This document shows, one piece after another, positions 1 to 50,680 of a stretch of 64,000 bases of DNA. Below the pieces are notes generated by a model that made no database searches, had not been told where the DNA came from, and was given only the letters and a program-made list of their open reading frames with translations. The translations under genes and the position numbers were made by a program. Source of the stretch: an uncultured Eggerthellaceae bacterium (GTDB lineage: Bacteria > Actinomycetota > Coriobacteriia > Coriobacteriales > Eggerthellaceae). The DNA is taken from contig CATKXW010000007.1 in NCBI GenBank assembly GCA_949840905.1, positions 1-64,000 of the forward strand, given 5' to 3'. The number at the start of each line of letters is the position of its first letter. Position 1 is the first letter of the stretch.

Positions 1-255
1 CTCGTCACACCGTGGAGGAAGCCCGTCTATGAAAGCCTCTCACGATATCGATTCCCGGCGACAAAGTGAAAAGGACTTCCACCACAGTCGCCAGACTTCA
101 TCATGTAACAAACCTACGGCTTTCGCAGCCTTAAGCAAGCATGACGGGTGGAAGCCCTTGCCAACATGCTCAAAGCGCGAAAACAACGTGAGGTCTATTC
201 GGTTTGTTACTCTCCCTAACATGTCGCGATAGCGATGCTAGGTCGAAGTCTGGCA
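1..255 (-). promoter_or_regulatory. Copy A of a repeated structured leader, for a gene left of the window
   Basis: Non-coding leader read on the minus strand from a start near 255. Its last visible 89 bases (7-95) closely match 27637-27724, the leader of the giant secreted protein. Both ends of that block are conserved and the middle is variable. Positions 73-80 pair with 17-24 (8 pairs, one G-U). After a U-U mismatch, 82-85 pair with 12-15. The reading frame open in copy B is closed here by stops, so the similarity is not protein coding. In copy B the start codon lies 34 bases past the block, so the gene served by this copy should begin about 30 bases left of base 1. The function is unknown. 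Confidence 0.6.
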
Positions 256-261
256 AACCGG

Positions 262-290
262 AATATAGCAGACACCCGATCCGGCTTCAA
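262..290 (-). promoter_or_regulatory. Promoter for leader A
   Basis: On the minus strand there is a -35 TTGAAG (285-290), a 17-base spacer and a -10 TATATT (262-267). The bases just downstream, CCGGTTTGCCAGA, are almost identical in copy B. The window 249-273 matches 27902-27926 at 21 of 25 positions. The -35 boxes align at exactly the same offset in both copies. Confidence 0.6.
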
Positions 291-22394: not shown

Positions 22395-25300
22395 TCATGC
22401 GCTCGCCTCGTATCGATGGCCCTCTTGAGGATAGGCCCCCTCAAGAGCTACGCAATAGTAGAGCTTCGCTATGGGCAAACCCCAAGCGCCTAAGACGACG
22501 TCATCGGCAGTGACCCTCGAAACGTCCATGCCATAGAGCACCGCGAGCCTCGATCCGGCTCCCCTCATGGTGAATCCCTCAAGAGAGCCGTGTGCATCAT
22601 CGCTCACCGGATCCGTATCCCCGAACGCAAGCGAATAGGTACGCGAAGCGGTGCCGCTAGACGGATCATCGGCGTCGATCGCAGCGGCGAACGTCAGAGA
22701 TACATCCCGATGCTTCTCGGAGGTCTTCCATGCCTCCTCATCCCCTGGATTCGCCGCTATCGTAGCACCGGCGAAAGTGCGTTTGACATTGGCGAGCCGC
22801 TCAGATGCGGCCGCATCCGAGTCATCCTCGCCTATAGCCGTGACGAGCAGATTGCCTGAGGTGTGAGAGACGAACGTGCCTACGGCATGGTCGATGTCTC
22901 TTCCATTCTGTCCGACGGTACCATCGGTCGGATCCGATCCGCGAACCGTAAGCTCTTTGGTGGCCACATCTACCACCAACCTCAGAGAGATGGCTACCGG
23001 AACATCCACCGTTATGATCTCAGACCAGCACGGACGTAGATATGCCACATCCGTCATATTCCCGCCAGTGAAATTGGCCACCTGATAGGTGCCGTTCGGA
23101 ACCAGCACCTCGACGCGCTCGAAGGTCGACTGATCGATGGCACCTATCCTCTGATGGTGCTCGTCGTAGGCGCTCCAACCCATGAACATGATGTGACCAG
23201 GCTTTTGCGGAAGCACCGAAGGTATGACGACCACCTTGCGATCGTAATCGGTCTTAAGCGAACCGGGCGCGTCGATCTCGGCCGGCCACGCCTCCCCAGC
23301 ATCAGCATCCAACCGAAGTTCGATAGCGATCTCTTGAGGATCCCAATCGGCATAGAACACGCGTGTGCCCTCATCTTCGATCTTCATTCCTTCCTGAAAG
23401 GGAGCTCCCTGACCGTTCGGCTGGTCGAACCACCCCTTCATAACGTACTTGCCTGGGATAGGCGTCACCGAAGGAGCTTTGATCTCGTCCCCCACCTCAT
23501 ATATCACCGTCAGCGTGCCTTTGCCATCGATAGTCCCTCCGACAGCATCCCAGGTCACCAATGCTAGTTTCGGTATGGGCACAAAACGCGCATAGTAAGT
23601 ATGAGAGCGCTCAGGAGACGTCGGCCGAGTCCCGCCCGAAACACAACTTCCTCCGCTCCGATTCGTCCACCAACCTTTAAACGTATAGCCGGCCTTGGTC
23701 GGAGCGATCGCCGGCAGATTCAGCGCCCCTCCCGCCTCCGAGACGACCATCTGCTCTTTCGGATAATCACTATCAGCATCATCGGCGACGAACCGATGAG
23801 CGACCGGGGAGGCGAACTCGCTATCGTTCGCATAGACTGGCACCACGTCGATGTAGAGGAAGTTCGTGTAGACGTCATTGCCCCCGCGCTTCGAGTAAGT
23901 GACGAAGCCTTTGTAGTCCGGTGAGATTCGCGATCTTGCCGCGAATGCCGTATAGAGGTCGCTCGCAGGGATGATGAGCTGATGACTTTTCTCCCGATGA
24001 TCCTCTATCGGAATGAATACCCCTGATGGTGTTCGGAATCCGACCAGACTGTGGCCCGCTTTGGTCAAACGATCGCTATTCTCATAAGGATACATCAGGC
24101 CTTGGGGCGAGAAATCCCCCATAGAGCGCAAGTCGATCGTTAACGTGCCCCCTTCATCCAGATAATAGCAATCAGAAACCGCACTATCAGCAGGGGCGGG
24201 ACCGTATGTCGCATACCATCCGGTCTTGTCCTTGATGTCGGACGGCTTCCGCTCCATCTGAGCGGATGCCTTCAGCGTGGAGCCCGCCCCAGCCACACCA
24301 AGAGAGTAAGTGGATGACCATGCATTCGAAGCATGCGGCACGCTGCTGTCAAAAAGAGCGACCAGCAGACCTTCGGCATCGAAAGCTGCCTCATACACTG
24401 GCTCCATCTCCACGTAGATGAAATTAGTGTAGACATTGTAGCCGCTCGTTCCTTGATAGGTGACCCATCCTTTCTGATCAGGACAGATGCGAGAGATATG
24501 AGCATGATCGAGCCAATTCCCCACACGAAGATCGCTCGCAGGTATCGTCAGCGAATAGCTCTTCGACCGAAAATCCTCGACCGACAAGAACACCCCTGAT
24601 GGGGTCTTGAAGCCTACGAGCCTCTCGGTCTCTTTGCGAAGGTTCGCAGATTCATAAGCCCATGAGGTGCTTCCATAGGAATAATCGGTGATCCCGGACA
24701 AGGTGAGCGTGAGGGTTTCGGCATCGTTAAGGTAATAGCAGTCCTTCAGCTGATCTTGGGTCATGGTCGACACATCGCCTTCATATGCCGCGTCGAACGA
24801 CGCGAACTTGCTGATGTTCGACTCCCGCAAAGCAACATCCGGAGAAAGAGAAACCGAGGAACCTGGTGCAGCCACCCCTAGAGAGAGAGCATCGTTCCAG
24901 TTCACTCCCTTCGTAGATGAGTCGAACAGAGCGATGAGCGAACCTTCGATATCGAGATCCTGCTCATAGACAGGCCGAACGTCGACATAGAGGAAATTCG
25001 TGAAGATGTTGGTGCTGCTCCCCTCCACATCGTAGACCACATATCCCGTATAGCCTGGTGATATCCGTGATTCCAGTTTGAATCCCCGCCCATCATCGGG
25101 TACGAAGATATCCGAGGCAGAGATATTCCAATCGTAGGTACCACTGCGAAAATCATCCACCGATAAGAACGCTCCTGAAGGGGTCTCGAATCCGACCAAT
25201 CGTTTGCCTGCCGGTTGTAGCTTCGATGTATTCTCGTAGGCATAATGATCAGTGGTCTTATCGTATCCATTCCATCGCGATAGCGATCGCATAGATACCG

Positions 25301-27602
25301 TCAAACTATCAGCATCTGTCAAGTAATAGCTGCTCTTCAGGGATGCAAGATCGGGCATATCGCCATAATGAGCGCCGTCAATCTCAGTGAGACCATCGAA
25401 GCGAGATGGGATCATGGTGGTCTTCAAGCTCATAGAGGGTGCAGCCGTGACCGTCGAACCGACTCCCGCAACACCAAGCGAATAGGTGCTCGCCCACAAC
25501 CCTGAGTCATTACCGTCGGAACCATCGTACAACCCGATCAACATTCCCTCAGCATCGAGCGTCTTGCGCTCATAGACCGGAGTCATGTTAAGGTAAATAT
25601 AGTTCGTATAAACGTTCCGATGGGAAGAGAAGCCCGAATAAACGACCCATCCGTGGTAATCGAGGCAAACGCGAGAATCCCACGTACGAGCCCCGAACTC
25701 TCCCACGTGAAGATCCTCCGGCGTTATGGTGAGAGCATAATCGCCGCTCCTGAAATCCTCCACAGATACGAAGGATCCCGACGGTAGTTGAAAACCAACA
25801 AGCTCCCCTTCACCGGTCGCGAGATTCTCTAGATTCTCGTAAGGATAGCGCTCACCGGAAGCGTATTCGTAGCTCCAAGGGGTCATATCGTGTAGCTGCA
25901 ACGTGAATGAAGGTATATCCTTGAGGTAATAGCACTCTCTTAATCTCTCGCGATCAGGCAATTCACCGTATGCGGAATACATCTCGGAATAGCCCTCATA
26001 GCCTAAGACATCGTCCTCTTTAGGCTGGATCGGCTCGTTCGCCGTAGCATAGGACCCAGCACCGGCCACGCCCAAAGAATACGTACCTGCCCATTCGGAC
26101 CTAGGGTTAGAGGTATCCCAGATACCGATGAGCAGACCTTCAACGTTGAAATAGCTCTGAGGAATCCCTGCGCCATCGATCTGCGCAGTTTTCATGTCGG
26201 CCATCGGAAGCGGATCACCTTGGGTAACAGGCTCTTTCATCGATGACTCAGCCCCGAGAAAATCATCGACATCCGCATCGGTCAACAGCGCATCCGGTGC
26301 CCCCGCCATCGTTTGCTCACCGTCAAGAAGGTCGGTGATGGTCGTGATGATTCGTTCGGAGCTTCGACGTGCATCCATATCGACATGGGTCAGAGAATCG
26401 CTATGGTCATTTTCCTCTGTCGTCGCAACGACGCTCAGAGGCTCGCCGCGACCATTATATAATGCGATCTCTCCCAGAGTGGAGAATGCTGCGCTGTCCG
26501 CATCAGCGACAAGAACGTCCACCGAGGGGCAATGCGAGAACACCTCAGGATCAACGCTCGTCACATTAGGAGCGATACGGACAGCGCCCTCTCTACCCTC
26601 GGGAATGAGTAGAAGGCTAGTAAGCTCGCTGTCGTAAAGACAGCCGTCATAGGATGAGTAGGTAGGATCGTCGTCGGAGACGACCAACTGTTGCAGAGCA
26701 TCGGAACCCGCGAAGGCACCATCTTCGATGGAAGAGACGGAAGCCGGGATGCCGATCGCGACGATGCCTGCGAAGCCCTCTTCGCCATCGATCCCTTCGA
26801 GCTCTTCAGAGCTCTCGGATCCGTCCTCGATCGCAAAGGCTCCTGCTACCTCTTTGGTAAGACCAGAGAAGGCCCCATCAGCGATACGGGTCACGCTATG
26901 GGCATCGGCCCCATCAGCGCAGATCACTGAAGGAATGGCGAGGATGCTCTCGCTCACCTGCTCGCTCGGCAGCTTCGAATAGTCAGCTGCCACCACGGCG
27001 ACGGATTCTCCACCAGGCTCTACCGCATAGGTGAGACCATCGAAGGTGAAAGAGCCCACGACAGTGGATTCAGCAGCGACGCCACCAGAGCCCAGGTCGG
27101 GCTCGTCTAGGTCCTTGCCCTCTTCGGCTACCTGGCCATCATCGGAGCCCTCCGTGCTATCGCCAAGGGAGGAAGACGTATCGCCCATGGAAGGGTCGAG
27201 GCTTTCGGCAGGCGACCCCGAAGAAGGCCCGCTCACATCGAGCGGCAGCTTCGCGCTCACCACAGGGACCGACTTGGTGGTCTCCAAGGTCTGAGCCAAG
27301 AAGAAGCTCTTGGTGGACTCTGCCTGGGCGACCACGCTCTCAAGGGCCATCTCTTGGTTGATGATGCCTCCAGAAAGACCAGCAACGCCTTCGACATCAG
27401 CGCCTTCTGCAGAAGAAGCCCCATCGGCGTTCTGATCGGCATCCTCGATCGGATCGGAAGCATTCGCTTCGATCGGCTCATCGGCAGATGGGCCGCTGAG
27501 AGGTTCTGCGAAGGCTGTGATGGGGATGAGGCCCAAAGCTAACGTGACAGCGAAGAAAGCTGAGAGAAGCTTCCTTGAAAGAGAGACGACAGAGGCTCGC
27601 AT
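22395..27602 (-). CDS. Giant secreted repeat protein with BspA-type LRRs and InlB-like repeats
   Basis: A 1735-residue predicted surface or secreted protein. The signal peptide has a basic start, a hydrophobic core LLSAFFAVTLALGLIPI and likely cleavage after AFA. An acidic low-complexity stretch follows (about 33-170), then BspA-type leucine-rich repeats (about 230-390, as in IPASVSSIEDGAFAG). Next come four tandem units of ~185-200 residues starting near genomic 26145, 25560, 24950 and 24390. Each unit carries EGxLIxLxD near its start, YSLGVAxxGS, CYYLxD, PSGxFxSVEDFRS and VYTNFIY, and ends with PVY. InlB-type repeats (KAGYTFKGWW, GKYVMKGWF) and an unassigned C-terminal domain finish it. There is no LPXTG, SLH domain or C-terminal membrane anchor. 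ATG at 27602 follows GGAAGGAGCGGG. Confidence 0.85.
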   Translation of the reverse strand: MRASVVSLSRKLLSAFFAVTLALGLIPITAFAEPLSGPSADEPIEANASDPIEDADQNADGASSAEGADVEGVAGLSGGIINQEMALESVVAQAESTKSFFLAQTLETTKSVPVVSAKLPLDVSGPSSGSPAESLDPSMGDTSSSLGDSTEGSDDGQVAEEGKDLDEPDLGSGGVAAESTVVGSFTFDGLTYAVEPGGESVAVVAADYSKLPSEQVSESILAIPSVICADGADAHSVTRIADGAFSGLTKEVAGAFAIEDGSESSEELEGIDGEEGFAGIVAIGIPASVSSIEDGAFAGSDALQQLVVSDDDPTYSSYDGCLYDSELTSLLLIPEGREGAVRIAPNVTSVDPEVFSHCPSVDVLVADADSAAFSTLGEIALYNGRGEPLSVVATTEENDHSDSLTHVDMDARRSSERIITTITDLLDGEQTMAGAPDALLTDADVDDFLGAESSMKEPVTQGDPLPMADMKTAQIDGAGIPQSYFNVEGLLIGIWDTSNPRSEWAGTYSLGVAGAGSYATANEPIQPKEDDVLGYEGYSEMYSAYGELPDRERLRECYYLKDIPSFTLQLHDMTPWSYEYASGERYPYENLENLATGEGELVGFQLPSGSFVSVEDFRSGDYALTITPEDLHVGEFGARTWDSRVCLDYHGWVVYSGFSSHRNVYTNYIYLNMTPVYERKTLDAEGMLIGLYDGSDGNDSGLWASTYSLGVAGVGSTVTAAPSMSLKTTMIPSRFDGLTEIDGAHYGDMPDLASLKSSYYLTDADSLTVSMRSLSRWNGYDKTTDHYAYENTSKLQPAGKRLVGFETPSGAFLSVDDFRSGTYDWNISASDIFVPDDGRGFKLESRISPGYTGYVVYDVEGSSTNIFTNFLYVDVRPVYEQDLDIEGSLIALFDSSTKGVNWNDALSLGVAAPGSSVSLSPDVALRESNISKFASFDAAYEGDVSTMTQDQLKDCYYLNDAETLTLTLSGITDYSYGSTSWAYESANLRKETERLVGFKTPSGVFLSVEDFRSKSYSLTIPASDLRVGNWLDHAHISRICPDQKGWVTYQGTSGYNVYTNFIYVEMEPVYEAAFDAEGLLVALFDSSVPHASNAWSSTYSLGVAGAGSTLKASAQMERKPSDIKDKTGWYATYGPAPADSAVSDCYYLDEGGTLTIDLRSMGDFSPQGLMYPYENSDRLTKAGHSLVGFRTPSGVFIPIEDHREKSHQLIIPASDLYTAFAARSRISPDYKGFVTYSKRGGNDVYTNFLYIDVVPVYANDSEFASPVAHRFVADDADSDYPKEQMVVSEAGGALNLPAIAPTKAGYTFKGWWTNRSGGSCVSGGTRPTSPERSHTYYARFVPIPKLALVTWDAVGGTIDGKGTLTVIYEVGDEIKAPSVTPIPGKYVMKGWFDQPNGQGAPFQEGMKIEDEGTRVFYADWDPQEIAIELRLDADAGEAWPAEIDAPGSLKTDYDRKVVVIPSVLPQKPGHIMFMGWSAYDEHHQRIGAIDQSTFERVEVLVPNGTYQVANFTGGNMTDVAYLRPCWSEIITVDVPVAISLRLVVDVATKELTVRGSDPTDGTVGQNGRDIDHAVGTFVSHTSGNLLVTAIGEDDSDAAASERLANVKRTFAGATIAANPGDEEAWKTSEKHRDVSLTFAAAIDADDPSSGTASRTYSLAFGDTDPVSDDAHGSLEGFTMRGAGSRLAVLYGMDVSRVTADDVVLGAWGLPIAKLYYCVALEGAYPQEGHRYEASA

Positions 27603-27908
27603 CGCGACCCGCTCCTTCCGGCGTGTGTTTCCGACTACACCGTGGAGGAGGCCCTTGTTATCTATGAGATATCGCTTCGATCTCGGCGATCCGTGTGAGG
27701 AGGGCATCCACCACAATCGCCAGAAAGCATGCTGCTTACAACATTAGATCACTGCCTAACACCGAACACAGTCATGAAAGGCAGATGCCCTCTTCATTCC
27801 GTGTTCAGACATGAGACAGGAATTCGCGCAGCAAAAGCAGCTATCGCAGAACTTGTTATTAAGTTGTTCGCAGCTCTTCACTCGATCGTGAAGAAATGCT
27901 TTCTGGCA
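27603..27908 (-). promoter_or_regulatory. Copy B of the repeated leader, upstream of the giant secreted protein
   Basis: A ~306-base untranslated leader between the predicted start near 27908 and the ATG at 27602. The conserved 3' block, 27637-27724, matches 7-95. Its stem pairs 27702-27709 with 27647-27654 (one mismatch), and 27711-27714 with 27642-27645 outside a U-U mismatch. The outer GTGG/CCAC is identical in both copies. In the middle of the inner stem, U-G in copy A is C-G here. A possible inner stem, GAGAU with AUCUC, occurs in this copy. A 78-codon open frame at 27756-27992 overlaps it and is rejected. Confidence 0.6.
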
Positions 27909-27914
27909 ACCCGG

Positions 27915-27943
27915 AGGATAACAGACGAAGCCCTCCCTTACAA
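27915..27943 (-). promoter_or_regulatory. Promoter for leader B and the giant secreted protein
   Basis: TTGTAA (-35, 27938-27943), a 17-base spacer, then TATCCT (-10, 27915-27920) on the minus strand. It lines up position for position with the promoter at 262-290. Downstream bases CCGGGTTGCCAGA nearly equal those of copy A. Confidence 0.55.
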
Positions 27944-28122: not shown

Positions 28123-28362
28123 ATGCCACAGCTATCTCTTTACTTGAACGATCAGGCGTTCGGGATCCTGAAGAGCGAGGCCGCCCGTGCAAAGCGGTCA
28201 GTTTCGGGGTTCGTATCGCAACTCGTCATGGAACACGGACGAAGGTCATCGTGGCCTCCCGATTACTGGACCGAGGTATACGGCGGTCTTGTTGACGAGA
28301 CCTTTCAGGTTCCCGAAGAGCTCGATAGCGACCTTGACGGTGCTCTTCCGACGCTCGCTTAA
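28123..28362 (+). CDS. Antitoxin of a VapBC-like pair (ribbon-helix-helix type)
   Basis: A 79-residue protein. An N-terminal beta strand, PQLSLYLND, followed by helices (AFGILKSEAARAKRSVSGFVSQLV) matches a ribbon-helix-helix DNA-binding fold. The C-terminal tail PPDYWTEVYGGLVDETFQVP is the part expected to block the toxin. It has a strong ribosome site, GGAGGTGA, and precedes the PIN-domain gene by 15 bases. It probably represses its own promoter through the repeats at 28084-28104. The fold call is by pattern only. Confidence 0.75.
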   Translation: MPQLSLYLNDQAFGILKSEAARAKRSVSGFVSQLVMEHGRRSSWPPDYWTEVYGGLVDETFQVPEELDSDLDGALPTLA

Positions 28363-28377
28363 AGAAGGAGCCTGGAC

Positions 28378-28791
28378 ATGTATCATCTCGATTCGGATAT
28401 CTGCATAGAGCTGATGCGGGGCCGCCTTCCTTATGCGTACGAACTGATGCGCCAAAACGATCCGTCGCTATTCGCTATTCCAGCCATCGTGGAAGCCGAG
28501 CTGCGGACAGGAGCAGCCAAGAGCGCACACCCCAGGAAGAACCTCGCGCTGCTCGAACGGTTCCTCGCCCCCTTCTCCCGCATTCCTTTCGACAGCGAAT
28601 GCGCCGCCACCTACGCGACCATACGATCCTATCTTGAAAAGAAGGGATGCAAGATCGGACCTAACGACCTGCTGATCGCTGCTACCGCTGTCACCCATGG
28701 GGCTGTTCTCGTCAGCAACAACGCTCGCGAGTTCTCGCGCATCCCCACCTTGCGGCTCGAAAGCTGGACCGAGATGGACATCGACGAATGA
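28378..28791 (+). CDS. PIN-domain ribonuclease toxin (VapC-like)
   Basis: A 137-residue PIN-domain protein. Acidic active-site candidates are Asp in YHLDSDICIELMRG, Glu in IVEAELRTGA, and Asp in GPNDLLIAATAV. Near the end is LVSNNAREFSRI, where many VapC have NDxREF or NNxREF. VapC toxins cleave tRNA or rRNA and halt translation until the antitoxin binds. It follows the antitoxin gene closely. The pair sits between the surface-protein locus and polA, the only plus-strand genes in about 38 kb of minus-strand genes. Confidence 0.87.
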   Translation: MYHLDSDICIELMRGRLPYAYELMRQNDPSLFAIPAIVEAELRTGAAKSAHPRKNLALLERFLAPFSRIPFDSECAATYATIRSYLEKKGCKIGPNDLLIAATAVTHGAVLVSNNAREFSRIPTLRLESWTEMDIDE

Positions 28792-50570: not shown

Positions 50571-50680
50571 AAGTGCGTCGAGAAGACTTGGGCGCTCGTC
50601 AGCGGTCCCTTATGGCTGCTTGCTCCCGCACCTGACCAGGTTCGGAACATGTCGCCGCCCAAGCCCTCTCGACGCACTCA
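50571..50680 (-). ncRNA. ffs: Signal recognition particle RNA (4.5S type)
   Basis: About 110 bases on the minus strand folding as a single long hairpin. The ends pair (AGTGCGTCGAGA with TCTCGACGCACT, and GGCTTGGGCG with CGCCCAAGTC). The top is the conserved SRP domain: GGTCAGGTGC, the tetraloop GGGA, then GCAAGCAGCC. This is the Ffh-binding site for co-translational targeting. It is in the usual actinobacterial place, just upstream of dnaX. The ends are estimated from pairing. Confidence 0.92.

Follow-up and report, generated by a model that had tools for sequence, protein, structure and literature searches.

A structured leader RNA of Coriobacteriia, multiplied before giant secreted-protein genes in one genus and proposed to act as a translational switch

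The 64,000-nucleotide stretch of DNA analysed here (the window), taken from contig C7 of a 1.98 Mb genome in a 44-contig assembly (G000), carries two copies of a structured leader RNA whose standing as a real RNA class is very secure. We consider it probable that this leader is a cis-regulatory 5' RNA of Coriobacteriia, absent from Rfam, that acts like a translational riboswitch, a reading made without ligand, RNA or reporter data. For a more specific proposal we see about even chances: a new Coriobacteriia riboswitch class that senses a cell-surface or host/phage-contact signal via a P1-enclosed junction and a long core:B1 pseudoknot, and that commands about 35-44 giant surface proteins in one genus (g1) by translation alone.

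Both copies lie on the minus strand, where a first-pass annotation of the window had placed them, and their promoters are as it described, with an identical 17-bp spacer. The features of the two copies are given below, where R1 is a covariance model of the leader 3' half built from 18 copies and R2 a covariance model of the leader 5' domain built from 69 copies.

1-256, minus strand: copy A leader RNA, 5' end inferred near 255-256; R2 match at 51-255 (85 bits)
262-290, minus strand: copy A promoter, TTGAAG (285-290)-N17-TATATT (262-267), a layout common to other copies
245-254, minus strand: copy A P1 5' strand, GCCAGACUUC, pairing with 90-99; P1 covariation in 69 copies
90-99, minus strand: copy A P1 3' strand, GAAGUCUGGC, partner of 245-254
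147-159, minus strand: copy A hairpin core and pseudoknot 5' strand, AAGGGCUUCCACC, with 13 consecutive pairs to 71-83, supported by covariation
66-88, minus strand: copy A strand B1, ACUGUGGUGGAAGUCCUUUUCAC, of which 71-83 is the pseudoknot 3' strand
10-24, minus strand: copy A strand B3, GGGCUUCCUCCACGG, able to pair with either B1 or the Shine-Dalgarno sequence
27600-27909, minus strand: copy B leader RNA, to the start codon; R2 match at 27679-27908 (131 bits), R1 match at 27600-27724 (114 bits)
27915-27943, minus strand: copy B promoter, TTGTAA (27938-27943)-N17-TATCCT (27915-27920)
27896-27907, minus strand: copy B P1 5' strand, GCCAGAAAGCAU, with 12 pairs to 27719-27730
27719-27730, minus strand: copy B P1 3' strand, AUGCUUUCUGGC, partner of 27896-27907
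27780-27793, minus strand: copy B hairpin core, AGAGGGCAUCUGCC, pairing with B1 (27700-27712)
27695-27716, minus strand: copy B strand B1, of which 27700-27712 is the pseudoknot 3' strand
27640-27654, minus strand: copy B strand B3, GGGCCUCCUCCACGG
27611-27619, minus strand: copy B Shine-Dalgarno sequence, GGAAGGAGC
22395-27602, minus strand: gene regulated by copy B, a 1735-aa secreted protein with a signal peptide and Listeria-Bacteroides repeat (Flg_new)

The contig edge cuts off the 3' part of the copy A leader, and the gene behind this copy cannot be read because the window starts at base 1 of the contig. The repeated block that the first-pass annotation had recognized (7-95 and 27637-27724) is real: its conserved ends are B3 (10-24; 27640-27654) and B1 together with the P1 3' strand (66-99; 27695-27730), separated by a variable linker, and the conserved stem proposed within it is the B1:B3 pairing, U-U mismatch included. 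Two helices that are better supported than this stem had been overlooked, namely P1 (245-254 with 90-99; 27896-27907 with 27719-27730) and the pseudoknot (147-159 with 71-83; 27780-27793 with 27700-27712). The statement that the cassette is present twice is correct for the window but not for the genome, where 34-36 copies occur. Elsewhere in the window, a short tandem array with units of the GGCAATTAACC / GGCAATCA type lies just upstream of the copy A promoter (about 386-475), a two-gene cassette upstream of copy B and directed away from it (28123-28791, plus strand) resembles, from its translation only, an antitoxin with a PIN-domain (VapC-like) toxin, and a bacterial small SRP RNA is found at 50574-50671 (minus strand, 60.9 bits).

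A 17-base pattern taken from the block matched G000 exactly at 12 sites and nearly so at about a dozen more. With R1 (E <= 3e-4) there were 36 matches in this genome and 43 in G050 (uncultured MAG CANOCK01), the only other g1 genome searched, while R2 recovered 34 and 44 copies respectively. At E <= 0.01, R2 identified carriers among 43 of 140 genomes of the family (about 30%) and 51 of 400 genomes of the class. Each carrier outside g1 that was checked thoroughly holds 1-5 copies, counts that come from the R2 search without a class-wide covariance model and are thus lower bounds. Three weak R1 matches outside g1 appeared coding-like at first; R2 located full leaders at these sites (L203, L209, L213). 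No leader was found outside Coriobacteriia, and among 397 genomes of the phylum matches at E <= 0.001 occurred only in the family of the window (f1). Three pattern scans of viral contigs gave no true leader member, and the one distant leader searched against plasmids had no match; a phage or plasmid origin was rejected on these grounds. Many contigs of G000 (C1, C7, C10, C12, C18, C26, C31, C34) end in or just past a leader copy. Assembly was probably interrupted by the repeated leaders, so that the true copy numbers may be higher than those counted.

Within g1 the leader runs 5' to 3' from the promoter through about 8 nt, the P1 5' strand, the P2 hairpin, P3, a CGAAUA motif, variable hairpins and P4 with its core (GAAGAGGGCAUCUGCCUUUC), to the P3' and P1' strands, B1 (ACUGYGGUGGAUGCCCUCCUCAC), a linker, B3 (GGGCCUCCUCCRCAG), a small hairpin, the Shine-Dalgarno sequence and the AUG. 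The RNA is inferred to begin at helix P1, about 8 nt past the -10 box, in the absence of transcript 5'-end data, and each copy checked has a promoter of its own. Enclosed by P1 are a junction and hairpin P4, which carries the core (GAGGGYAUCUGCC); strand B1 (GGUGGAURCCCUC), located just 3' of P1, is complementary to this core and forms with it a pseudoknot of 13-24 bp, often containing a conserved A.C-type mismatch. Most members also contain strand B3, for which B1 and the ribosome-binding site are alternative partners. Nearly all g1 copies end at the Shine-Dalgarno sequence GGAAGGAG and an ATG directly before the gene, with the ATG about 44-51 nt after the start of B3's CUCC in most G000 copies other than copy A. 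The start codon itself lies within a hairpin (e.g. GAUCGC-UAU-GCGGUC). At g1 start codons (e.g. 27585-27619) this conserved hairpin extends into codons 2-5, and it may constrain the first residues of the surface proteins (MRSS, MRAP).

The same architecture is seen in distant members, where the promoter and a core:B1 pseudoknot of 13-24 bp were present in 40 of 40 inspected loci and a clear P1 closely following the -10 region in 39 of 40; the pseudoknot is absent from the structure of the R2 search model, yet all 40 loci have it. The junction ACAAYYKAAUA, read from the distant leaders and partly visible in the consensus, is conserved, and together with the core it provides the best candidates for a binding site, although no binding data exist. 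In L240 the first element is followed, at about 590-690, by another P1-like sequence (AUCACCACAACCGC) that may be a partial or tandem copy.

Covariation provides the main support for the structure. In g1, double changes were found at 10 of 10 P1 pairs, with 97% of alignment cells paired, compared with 79% for P3 and 92% across the 21 pairs of the core:B1 pseudoknot. Taken together, these helices had 89.8% of cells paired and 451 double-change cells, versus 130 when partners were shuffled (0 of 500 shuffles), and pairing dropped to 40-47% in slid-register controls. Cognate pseudoknot strands exceeded shuffled partners with z of about 10, both in the G050 5' extension and over all copies. Shuffles within g1 ignore the relatedness of paralogues, a problem to which the slid control and a class-wide alignment are less exposed: class-wide, P1 and the pseudoknot were 96.2% paired with 253 double changes versus 65 shuffled (0 of 500), and 39-48% paired when slid. 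One position in the pseudoknot helix almost never pairs (A.C in 39 of 42 G050 copies; A.C, C.U or U.U in G000) and is a conserved mismatch. A conserved, structured and covarying 5' UTR domain, as expected of a riboswitch, is present.

The pairings that follow P1 also covary. The variable Y:R position of B1:B3 is paired in 70 of 70 copies, a value never reached in 5000 shuffles, and the adjoining B3:Shine-Dalgarno position in G050 is paired in 42 of 42 (0 of 5000), while an extra R3:pre-SD position in G000 is not conserved (10 of 28 paired). Among the distant members, 24 have a clear start codon; in these, cognate strands were more stable than shuffled ones for both B3:Shine-Dalgarno (-14.7 vs -12.1 kcal/mol) and B1:B3 (-22.4 vs -19.7 kcal/mol), in each case with 0 of 5000 shuffles as good. 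The clearest class-level cognate duplexes are those of L203 and L232 (GCUUCUUCCA/UGGAAGGAGC) and L241 (CUCCACGG/CCGUGGAG). These sequence comparisons suggest three mutually exclusive pairings in series, in which core:B1 would control B1:B3 and B1:B3 would in turn control B3:Shine-Dalgarno, and a switch topology is likely. In the proposed OFF state, the pseudoknot would capture B1, freeing B3 to mask the Shine-Dalgarno sequence; in the ON state, P4 would close on itself, B1 would hold B3 and translation could start. Which state is adopted would depend on a signal, such as a ligand or protein, acting at the conserved junction and core.

Energy calculations leave the direction of this switch as an inference. 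When g1 leaders were folded without pseudoknot energies, blocking the pseudoknot strands raised B3:Shine-Dalgarno pairs from 3.8 to 5.7, and median Shine-Dalgarno accessibility moved only from 0.18 to 0.16, a weak trend. Because accessibility changes so little in this pseudoknot-free fold, the assignment of the pseudoknot to OFF could be reversed, and the ON state has not been demonstrated. Before loop penalties are counted, the summed energies of the duplexes lie about 10-20 kcal/mol on the side of the pseudoknot state, a bias that would require a strong trigger or co-transcriptional kinetics.

Wherever the gene behind a g1 copy can be read, it directly follows the leader and encodes a giant secreted protein. 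The first-pass annotation had offered two readings, an undescribed regulatory RNA or a shared expression cassette of a surface-protein family. The latter holds within the genus, where the 63 downstream proteins that reach 150 aa or more all fall into a single homology cluster, with sizes up to at least 2562 aa, and 67 of 67 readable N-termini have a hydrophobic segment. The former is supported by the lack of an Rfam match, and one of the outcomes named as refutations, that no other genomes would carry the block with covarying pairs, did not occur, as they do carry it. In g1 the leader appears to have multiplied together with the giant protein family, and one signal could therefore control about 35-44 surface proteins at once.

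Outside g1, the downstream genes encode lipoproteins, surface and membrane proteins and DNA methylases. Among them are genes for Flg_new and choline-binding proteins, CHAP with ricin lectin, lipoproteins, TM2/SHOCT, SPFH band 7, BspA-type LRR, VWA, ankyrin, zinc-ribbon and EcoRI-type methylase proteins; a few distant members lack any gene in the nearest 150 nt or so. In three genomes the RNA stands directly before an EcoRI-type adenine methyltransferase gene (L214, L220, L241), and B3:Shine-Dalgarno pairing is nearly perfect in L220 and L241. A defence theme was rejected, as PADLOC matched only the methylase among 8 downstream proteins. Taken as a set, these envelope and accessory genes represent no metabolic pathway and are more like a signalling regulon than the targets of a nutrient switch.

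Several other explanations of these observations need to be weighed. A regulatory protein (a repressor or chaperone), rather than a small molecule, might trigger the leader via the same B1/B3/Shine-Dalgarno platform, and this would agree with a conserved single-stranded junction and core suited to a protein site and with one trigger serving very different genes that share no metabolic theme. However, no candidate protein has been identified and pairing with covariation largely explains the conservation of the core and B1, leaving this alternative unlikely, if still worth keeping. We see only a slim chance that one shared small RNA, complementary to the common core or B1, opens or locks all leaders in trans: each pseudoknot covaries with its own B1 and cognate pairing far exceeds non-cognate, as expected in cis, even though the copies hardly differ in core and B1 and the few distant members lacking a nearby gene might act in trans.

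Slightly less probable again is a constitutive 5' structure that sets only mRNA stability or basal translation. The computed folds are extremely stable and Shine-Dalgarno accessibility shifts weakly in silico, as such a structure would have it, but three mutually exclusive pairings kept by covariation would be needless in a static element. Least probable of all is a recombination or phase-variation cassette without RNA function, in which promoter, leader and signal-peptide DNA would serve for swapping surface genes. Near-identical repeats at gene starts, paralogous downstream proteins and the many G000 contigs that end in or near leaders are compatible with this reading, which is already disfavoured by covariation: compensatory changes in P1 and the pseudoknot are unexpected for recombination repeats, low-copy leaders across the class precede unrelated genes, and copies checked each carry their own promoter. 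A cis-acting, riboswitch-like leader remains our preferred interpretation. Riboswitch membership cannot be claimed without a ligand, and the leader is therefore filed as an orphan riboswitch-like RNA class.

A known Rfam family was rejected, since no Rfam 15 family matched the leader at its gathering score in scans of the whole window, both copies and 15 distant loci; two further leaders had no match at E up to 1. The GEMM-I and GEMM-II covariance models of c-di-GMP riboswitches did not match the leader. Carriers G050 (43-44 copies, genome 85% complete), G010, G040 and G044 gave no match for GGDEF proteins, and G000 gave one; c-di-GMP is an unlikely ligand because several RNA-carrying genomes, incomplete as they are, have no GGDEF match. 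Ribosomal-protein genes were not among the downstream genes examined, and the leader therefore lacks the location expected of a ribosomal-protein leader. Our literature search, which covered subscription papers only in part, found nothing on such an RNA in Coriobacteriia and almost no regulatory-RNA work for these gut-associated bacteria. The leader is a large, covariation-backed RNA class of gut-associated bacteria without an Rfam entry. Should it prove to be a switch, a single signal would govern how a whole surface-protein family is displayed, and identifying that signal could reveal how these bacteria sense their host or community. The hunt for a ligand is well defined: the anatomy is compact, natural variants number in the dozens, and it is clear which mutations would break and restore the pairings.

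The leader shares individual traits with several known systems. PreQ1, SAM-II and c-di-GMP-II are pseudoknot riboswitches with translational platforms, and like them it places a pseudoknot beside an expression platform that would mask or free the Shine-Dalgarno sequence; its pseudoknot helix, however, is far longer, and the strand paired with its hairpin core can also pair with B3. With the L31-Coriobacteria leader (RF03128) it shares restriction to Coriobacteriia, but RF03128 is a 33 nt ribosomal-protein leader against which copy B scores 18.7 bits, below the threshold of 33; RF03128 itself is above threshold in G000 and in 0 of 14 control genomes, in agreement with the class to which the first-pass annotation had assigned the DNA. 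The c-di-GMP-I (GEMM-I, RF01051) riboswitches, among them those that control surface-protein genes in Clostridioides difficile (PMC6200980), are likewise cis-acting leaders that recur within a genome ahead of numerous adhesin-like and lipoprotein genes, whereas the present leader has no Rfam match, a P1-enclosed junction with a 13-24 bp pseudoknot, and carriers such as G050 and G010 without a GGDEF match. It also resembles the roughly 100 orphan riboswitch candidate classes that await validation (PMC10043782), being a conserved structured RNA upstream of genes with an unknown ligand, and is set apart from them by its confinement to Coriobacteriia in the genomes searched and its expansion to 34-44 copies in one genus.
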